Source: Bacteroidota bacterium (lineage in GTDB: Bacteria; Bacteroidota; Bacteroidia; B-17B0; Aurantibacillaceae). Taken from it: 64,000 bases of DNA. The number at the start of each line of letters is the position of its first letter. The first letter of the stretch is position 1. The notes below the pieces were generated by a model, which searched no databases, was not told where the DNA came from, and saw only the letters and a list, made by a program, of their open reading frames with translations. A program made the translations under genes and the position numbers. The stretch covers positions 1-64,000 of the forward strand of contig JAFLBH010000004.1 in the NCBI GenBank assembly GCA_017303905.1, in the 5' to 3' direction. Positions 51,954 to 52,410 of the stretch are shown here, piece by piece.

Positions 51954-52000
51954 TTGCTACAAAACGTAGCAACACTTCGCTTTAATTCGTAGTAATTTTG
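51954..52000 (+). promoter_or_regulatory. Palindrome and -7 box before the integrase-like gene
   Basis: TTGCTAC-AAAAC-GTAGCAA (51954-51972) is a perfect 7-bp inverted repeat. TAATTTTG at 51993-52000 matches the -7 consensus, 23 bp before the ATG at 52024. The palindrome sits where a -33 region should be, so it may be an operator, perhaps for the gene product itself. Confidence 0.4.
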
Positions 52001-52023
52001 TTATATCAAAAACAATATTAATT

Positions 52024-52410
52024 ATGAATTATTCAGTAGTACATGTTAACAAGATGGTATATGAGCACAGAGAGGTTGTAAAACTTGAGTTTTCATATAG
52101 CGATGAATTAGTAAAATTAGTAAAGAGCCTTCCGGGTGCCAAGTGGGATAAGTTATACCGCATGTGGTACATCGAGAAGCGTACCGGCTTACTTAATGAG
52201 GTGTTGAATTGTTTTAAAGGCAAAGCTTATTTAGATTATAAAGCACTTAAAAATGAAGCGATGCTTACAGCACAGCCGGTTTTAGAATGCAAAACAGAAG
52301 TGCCGCAACCGGTTAAAAGCGTTTATTATAACAACAGTAAAACCTCTCCGGTTAAGCAACCAGCAAAAAAGCAAAGTGCCAAGGTAAAACAATACGCTTT
52401 GTTTATTTGA
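52024..52410 (+). CDS. Lone HARP-like / integrase N-terminal-type DNA-binding protein
   Basis: A 128-residue protein. Residues about 15-75 (VVKLEFSYSDELVKLVKSLPGAKWDKLYRMWYI, then LNCFKGKAYLDYKAL) match the pattern of the N-terminal domain found in Bacteroidota tyrosine recombinases and of HARP domains: hydrophobic strand, F.Y, helix, pG.+Wd...+.W.I. The tail (90-128) is rich in Lys, Pro and Ser and has no R-H-R-Y catalytic domain. It may be a stand-alone DNA-binding protein or the remnant of an integrase; the clean start and stop favour a working gene. No neighbouring integrase is present. Confidence 0.6.
   Translation: MNYSVVHVNKMVYEHREVVKLEFSYSDELVKLVKSLPGAKWDKLYRMWYIEKRTGLLNEVLNCFKGKAYLDYKALKNEAMLTAQPVLECKTEVPQPVKSVYYNNSKTSPVKQPAKKQSAKVKQYALFI

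Follow-up and report, generated by a model that had tools for sequence, protein, structure and literature searches.

Proteins that combine an HTH with an S24 domain have been shown experimentally to run the SOS response in other Bacteroidetes, as non-canonical LexA repressors (PMC8565304). The boxes published for them are CTAA-N5-TTAG and GGA-N5-TCC, with TTAC-N5-GTAA in Elizabethkingia (PMC8565304). SOS boxes also precede tyrosine recombinase genes, as described for integron integrases under LexA (PMC3108266). Proteins that bind the beta sliding clamp do so through a QLxLF motif, which is mostly C-terminal according to PMC4549789.

The window, a 64,000-nucleotide stretch of the 3.95-Mb genome G000 from an uncultured Bacteroidota lineage, contains a stand-alone gene for the front domain of a tyrosine recombinase. 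This gene (52,024–52,410, plus strand) runs from an ATG start to a TGA stop and encodes a 128-residue protein with a Lys/Pro-rich tail, from which the core-binding and catalytic domains are missing. Searches of PHROGs and NCBIfam returned no match for it. The product is probably a DNA-binding helper at times of repair and not a broken enzyme. The explanation that covers the evidence best, and that is modestly favoured, is a domesticated, damage-induced protein that binds DNA structures and is possibly tethered to the clamp. In comparison with the integron integrases (PMC3108266), here the front domain alone appears to have been kept as a gene, and the related recombinases carry an additional N-terminal domain.

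Three features of this system are not joined in the literature searched: the CTAC-N5-GTAG element, apparently a further SOS-box variant in an uncultured Bacteroidota lineage; the putative family-wide SOS control of recombinases with a HARP-like front domain; and that front domain's likely domestication into a damage-response gene of its own.

Promoter and candidate operator of the window gene

Bacteroidota promoters have consensus elements at -33 and -7. The -7 box of the window gene, TAATTTTG (51,993–52,000, plus strand), is of this Bacteroidota type. Upstream lies the 19-bp palindrome TTGCTACAAAACGTAGCAA (51,954–51,972, unstranded), in which the arms TTGCTAC and GTAGCAA, with 0 mismatches between them, flank the spacer AAAAC and form a candidate SOS operator of the CTAC-N5-GTAG type. 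Its 3′ half ends about 20 nt ahead of the -7 box, which is the expected -33 position, and the -7 box follows the 17-nt palindrome core by 21 nt. The earlier note had described a stand-alone integrase N-domain gene with clean ends and its own promoter, and a perfect repeat at the -33 position; both descriptions hold.

The window site is the sole zero-mismatch match to operator plus promoter in G000. The palindrome is retained in six orthologous promoters, with one mismatch in G003, while the surrounding sequence drifts. This conservation, together with the site counts and the operator-plus-promoter search described below, rules out a chance palindrome. A third half-site-like element, GTAGTAA (51,989–51,995, plus strand), runs into the -7 box. 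All six stand-alone promoters keep it, as RTAGTAA joined to the -7 box, and a second operator that overlaps the first may include it.

A predicted genus-wide SOS regulon

Across the eight genus genomes, exact matches to TGCTAC-N5-GTAGCA number 43, compared with a single match to the reversed control. Among 85 oriented readings of about 43 sites, a TAnnTTTG box begins 21 nt (25 cases) or 22 nt (4 cases) past the core in 29, and at three other offsets once each. Searches for the operator and -7 box at fixed spacing, with up to three mismatches, gave 154 strand-hits across the eight genomes (33 in the control) and 20 in G000 alone (5 in the control). The search of G000 with 22-nt spacing gave 12 hits versus 9 in the control; because this is near the control, the recA and radC sites of G000 rest on the identity of their targets and not on the count. 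Most other boxes in the genus have an AATTT-like spacer, unlike the window box.

Among the genes that boxed promoters face across the genus are recA, radA, ruvB, dinB with a dnaE-like gene behind it, and SplB-like radical-SAM, ORF6N and GIY-YIG genes. Pfam matches confirm RecA, RuvB, the IMS polymerase, ORF6N, RNaseT+GIY-YIG and radical SAM. The radA target matches AAA_25/Lon_C, with the name radA assigned by the reader, and targets lacking Pfam matches were named by eye from their sequence. Targets in G000 include recA, radC, dinB, ruvB, a SplB-like (photoproduct-lyase-like) gene and a full-length integrase, along with Vsr-like, ComM-like, RNaseT+GIY-YIG exonuclease and DUF559-type genes. Among the 15 candidate sites in G000, L116 is internal to a gene and L117 and L118 stand ahead of membrane proteins, and not all 15 are believable.

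Although integrases lie near several sites, the fixed promoter spacing before recA, dinB, radA and ruvB excludes an attachment or recombination site. GyrB and PriA were also rejected as targets: their genes end at the site in L069 and L085, and the boxed promoters there face GIY-YIG and ORF6N genes. Small mobile-looking genes (ORF6N, GIY-YIG, DUF559-like, four-helix-bundle and HigBA-like) recur behind SOS boxes at places that differ between genomes (L060, L065, L067, L069, L080, L084, L085, L090 and L105–L119). In many of these SOS promoters, about 4 nt separate the end of the -7 box from the ATG, which predicts an mRNA start at or near the start codon, that is, a leaderless transcript (L007, L023, L124, L125, L127, L129, L131 and other family integrases; L034 at 6179).

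Each of the eight genomes encodes one HTH_3+S24 protein of about 260 residues, with both domains above the Pfam cut-off; a ninth S24 match lies inside a 731-residue frame in G007. By inspection, all eight have the SAG, GDSM and YKR residues that S24 repressors should carry, and two CTAy-N5-GTAG boxes lie upstream of the repressor gene in every genome. In G000 and G006, the core of one of these two boxes, CTACAAAACGTAG, is identical to that of the window gene's box. The HTH+S24 protein thus looks like a non-canonical LexA-like repressor. Because sites occur throughout the regulon and two similar boxes precede the S24 repressor, the palindrome is read as an SOS box and the window gene as an SOS gene, and SOS control of the window gene is judged highly likely from these sequence patterns.

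The system shares several features with the Bacteroidetes SOS described in PMC8565304: an HTH_3+S24 repressor whose own promoter carries boxes, a palindrome with an N5 spacer, and targets that include recA, dinB, ruvB, splB, radC and a GIY-YIG exonuclease. The box itself differs, as CTAC-N5-GTAG with TTG/CAA flanks corresponds neither to CTAA-N5-TTAG, nor to GGA-N5-TCC, nor to TTAC-N5-GTAA, and the main text of PMC8565304 names neither an integrase target nor a CTAC/GTAG box. Since the layout of a dyad around N5 is the same, CTAC-N5-GTAG fits a divergent variant of the Bacteroidetes SOS system, outside either published motif class.

The proposed regulation would run as follows. The CI-like HTH+S24 repressor would occupy the palindrome, covering the -33 region, and hold the gene silent; upon DNA damage, RecA-stimulated self-cleavage of the repressor would release it. 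The palindrome adjoins the gene, and the earlier note had suggested a private operator, which would make the 128-residue protein its own regulator. However, the same palindrome precedes recA, dinB, ruvB and others, and in other genera of the family, which yielded no intact stand-alone gene, the box is found ahead of integrases. With the palindrome a regulon-wide SOS box, autoregulation is the least probable of the readings considered. Among the roles proposed in the earlier note, that of a DNA-repair accessory protein fits best, because the gene belongs to the SOS regulon.

Full-length recombinases with the same front domain

The window protein matches the first 100–110 or so residues of a 382-residue tyrosine recombinase in G000 (29% identity, E 1.3e-11). 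In this recombinase, Phage_int_SAM_4 starts at residue 113 and Phage_integrase at 208, so the N-domain precedes the core-binding domain. The homologue L110 likewise holds PF13495 and PF00589, and dozens of other tyrosine recombinases match the window protein by their N-terminal part. Full-length relatives reach 207 bits against TIGR02249, for which the cut-off is 265.

A CTAY-N5-RTAG element lies within 160 nt upstream of 18 of 32 family members with the N-domain, in 16 cases at promoter spacing, versus 0 of 36 such members outside the family. Reversed controls gave 0 in both groups and shuffles 1.2%; the count excludes the stand-alones, and one row was dropped for which the upstream sequence was too short. 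In L060 and L084 the integrase has no box of its own, and a box precedes the GIY-YIG gene just upstream. A tyrosine recombinase gene behind an SOS box is the arrangement also described for integron integrases in PMC3108266. Most simply, the stand-alone gene inherited its SOS promoter along with the domain.

A shared domain and SOS box would also suit a modulator of recombination, one that competes for arm-type DNA or heterodimerises with full-length recombinases and so limits them during SOS. A full-length relative (58–100% identity to the query) is co-resident in six of the eight genus genomes (G000, G002, G003, G004, G005 and G006). G007, however, keeps the stand-alone gene and has no full-length relative carrying the domain, and the reverse applies to G004 and G005, both incomplete genomes, in which an integrase is present and no stand-alone gene was detected. 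The earlier note had listed an anti-integrase or excision factor among its options, and no positive evidence for either emerged; nor were any att or arm sites identified. Anti-integrase action is unsupported, and as an account of the gene it is distinctly unlikely.

The domain also occurs in other architectures, of about 500–560 residues and of 1022 residues. Examples include L135, L141 and L144 (in the family, about 540 residues), L166 and L169 (about 480 residues) and L164. In L135 and L144, apparent repeated copies of the N-domain stand before a core-binding-like segment. Among viral contigs, one integrase, covered by the overlapping loci L263 and L341, shows a weak N-domain match.

Single origin and conservation of the stand-alone gene

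Orthologues were sought in 41 genomes (G000 and 40 relatives), eight of which make up the genus. Intact stand-alone orthologues are present in five of these eight: G000, G006 (97%), G007 (68%), G003 (67%) and G001 (63%). The contig of G002 ends after 22 codons of the gene, and the gene was not detected in G004 (84% complete) or G005 (75% complete). An upstream aminotransferase is common to G000, G006, G007, G003 and G002; the context in G001 differs. Relatives hold the stand-alone gene, four of them behind the same aminotransferase, so the window gene is no piece of a full integrase that persists at that site, the outcome that the earlier note had named as refuting its reading.

Searches of 87 family genomes and 395 phylum genomes found no other clear stand-alone gene, so that among the genomes searched the form is confined to one genus. 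With the stand-alone protein as query, a phage search gave no match and a plasmid search only weak, unrelated-looking ones.

Six short-frame matches in the family were inspected, five of which are broken or cut integrases; in the sixth (G092) the linker is followed by an unrelated tail, where the frame ends. The five rejected as stand-alones are a frameshift within an otherwise complete integrase (G048), two frames that run into contig ends (G094 and G099), a frame that breaks off within the core-binding domain (G069), and an integrase interrupted by a GIY-YIG reading frame between its two parts (G096). In the last case (L414; G096:C41:10000-12200), the GIY-YIG frame splits the broken N-domain integrase as if it had been inserted.

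In a tree of 36 N-domains, the five stand-alones form one clade with support of 100/99. Four ortholog pairs have finite dS and give Nei-Gojobori dN/dS values of 0.042 (G000–G006), 0.060 (G007–G003), 0.093 and 0.103; dS is saturated in the remaining 6 of 10 pairs. Between G000 and G006 (window 52,024–52,407 against L031 5063–5446), the first 240 nt of the gene hold just 3 changes, and 15 of 19 synonymous changes fall in codons 82–113. This pattern possibly marks a recombination edge or extra constraint at the 5′ end.

The gene aligns with the integrase front end as far as core-binding helix 1, and the family does contain integrases that are truncated or interrupted, which would suit a non-functional remnant of a decayed integrase with an inherited SOS promoter. 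Against this stand dN/dS values of 0.04–0.10, a conserved stop and C-terminus, a single clade, and a promoter block conserved across saturated synonymous distances, and a remnant is highly improbable. One origin and conservation, with five of eight copies intact and dN/dS this low, indicate that the gene is not debris. The window gene looks like an integrase front end that was truncated once, inside helix 1, and kept afterwards, and the best explanation dates the truncation to the ancestor of the genus or earlier. The ancestor would have been an SOS-controlled tyrosine recombinase whose core-binding and catalytic domains were lost once, with selection preserving the remainder. A domesticated, functional gene, as the earlier note had considered, is very likely.

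Domain, linker and tail

Conservation divides the protein into three parts. Residues 1–81 (52,024–52,266, plus strand) share homology with the N-domain found in tyrosine recombinases of Bacteroidota, with a predicted beta-beta-alpha-beta-beta-alpha order and a pN of 0.13–0.17 among distant orthologues. Conservation is lost in residues 82–113 (52,267–52,362, plus strand), a variable linker with a pN of 0.55–0.72 in the same comparisons, and is high again in the last 15 or so residues. This conserved C-terminal peptide (residues 114–128; 52,363–52,407, plus strand) ends in KQYALFI and is colinear with helix 1 of the core-binding domain in the recombinases.

A possible HARP-like fold

The N-domain carries the signature F/Y..eL...vKslpg.rW....k.W, a likeness to the HARP domain of SMARCAL1 (PDB entry 4o66), whose structure was reportedly described by Mason et al. 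in 2014. HARP and DUF5710 are the sole Pfam families matched recurrently (by more than two members) among the 36 N-domains, and both fall below cut-off for the window protein. The Pfam HARP model (PF07443) gives the window protein 16.6 bits against a gathering cut-off of 25; at E values up to 0.1 it matches 7 of the 36 (best 1.1e-4), and DUF5710 matches 16 (best 6.6e-5). A profile search of PDB sequences also returned 4o66 as its best match, at E 0.12.

Structure prediction from the single sequence gave a poor model, with a mean pLDDT of 47.8. A model of residues 1–84 made without templates from three alignment rows has a mean pLDDT of 67.5. With this model, Foldseek ranked 4o66 first (E 0.12, probability 0.82). 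A second aligner given the same pLDDT-67.5 model placed the XPB N-terminal region (Z 6.0) and eIF1-like folds (5.9) in a tie, and 4o66 was absent from the 50 rows it listed. In a comparison with viral models, a HepA-related phage protein came fourth (E 0.012).

These hints are weak, mutually consistent and all below strict thresholds, and the N-domain looks HARP-like. The resemblance proposed in the earlier note stands insofar as 4o66 is the best match by both profile and Foldseek, with every score sub-threshold. A HARP-like DNA-binding fold is considered likely, and such a domain would bind branched, single-stranded or damaged DNA. The difference from SMARCAL1 is that here the domain forms a stand-alone bacterial protein that lacks the SNF2 ATPase, matched at E 0.12.

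The C-terminal peptide and a possible sliding-clamp motif

The tail reads KQYALFI in four of the five intact orthologues and KQYALLI in the fifth (G001), so that the conserved QYAL[FL]I fits a Q-x-x-L-F-like clamp-binding pattern. The arrangement resembles that of the clamp clients in PMC4549789, with a short C-terminal motif, here QYALF, behind a flexible linker; it differs in the Y at position 2 and the extra final I. The DinB proteins of the genus carry an internal YQF[ED]LF.

In the window and loci, a set of 522 ORFs biased toward SOS regions, Q-x-x-L-[FL] falls within the last nine residues of nine: the five stand-alones and four SplB-like proteins. A wider sample of G000, comprising the window and 60 stretches of 20 kb (1025 ORFs), held four carriers against 1.8 expected and five for the reversed motif. 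Named by eye, the four are the window protein, an Ogt-like protein (QASLF), a photolyase-like protein (QLTLL) and a membrane protein, in which the motif is not at the very end. The number of motifs is not above chance, and the identity of the carrier proteins is suggestive.

On its flexible linker, the C-terminal peptide would anchor the protein at stalled or repaired forks by binding a partner there, for which the beta sliding clamp is a plausible candidate. Judged from the motif, a clamp tether is tenable but open to doubt. A slightly more doubtful account keeps the SOS-induced DNA-binding protein and makes the tail a dimerisation element, a protease tag or a leftover helix. The tail aligns gap-free to core-binding helix 1 of the integrases and such C-termini are no commoner in the genome than chance, both of which favour this account; as a relic of that helix, the tail may be conserved for another reason. 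Yet where the tail departs from the integrases (Q, L and F/L), it has the residues of the clamp motif, and most of the other proteins with a C-terminal match belong to DNA repair. At the aligned helix-1 position, W is found in 33 and Y in 5 of the 38 readable integrases, and F or L in the stand-alones; the pattern failed to read 22 of the 60 long homologues.

The favoured reading of a damage-induced DNA-structure-binding protein has a more specific form, in which a clamp-riding, damage-inducible HARP-like protein acts on stalled or branched forks as a bacterial, ATPase-free counterpart of the substrate-recognition module of SMARCAL1. This form is rather unlikely. If a clamp or fork role were true, the protein would be a new small SOS effector and offer a simple test system for a HARP-like domain free of a motor. 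Clamp-like C-terminal ends (QLSLF, QMSLF, QASLF and QLTLL) are seen on DNA-repair proteins of this lineage, at SplB-like (L058, L045, L080 and L106), Ogt-like (L205, 7022–7516) and photolyase-like (L230, 16220–17545) loci.
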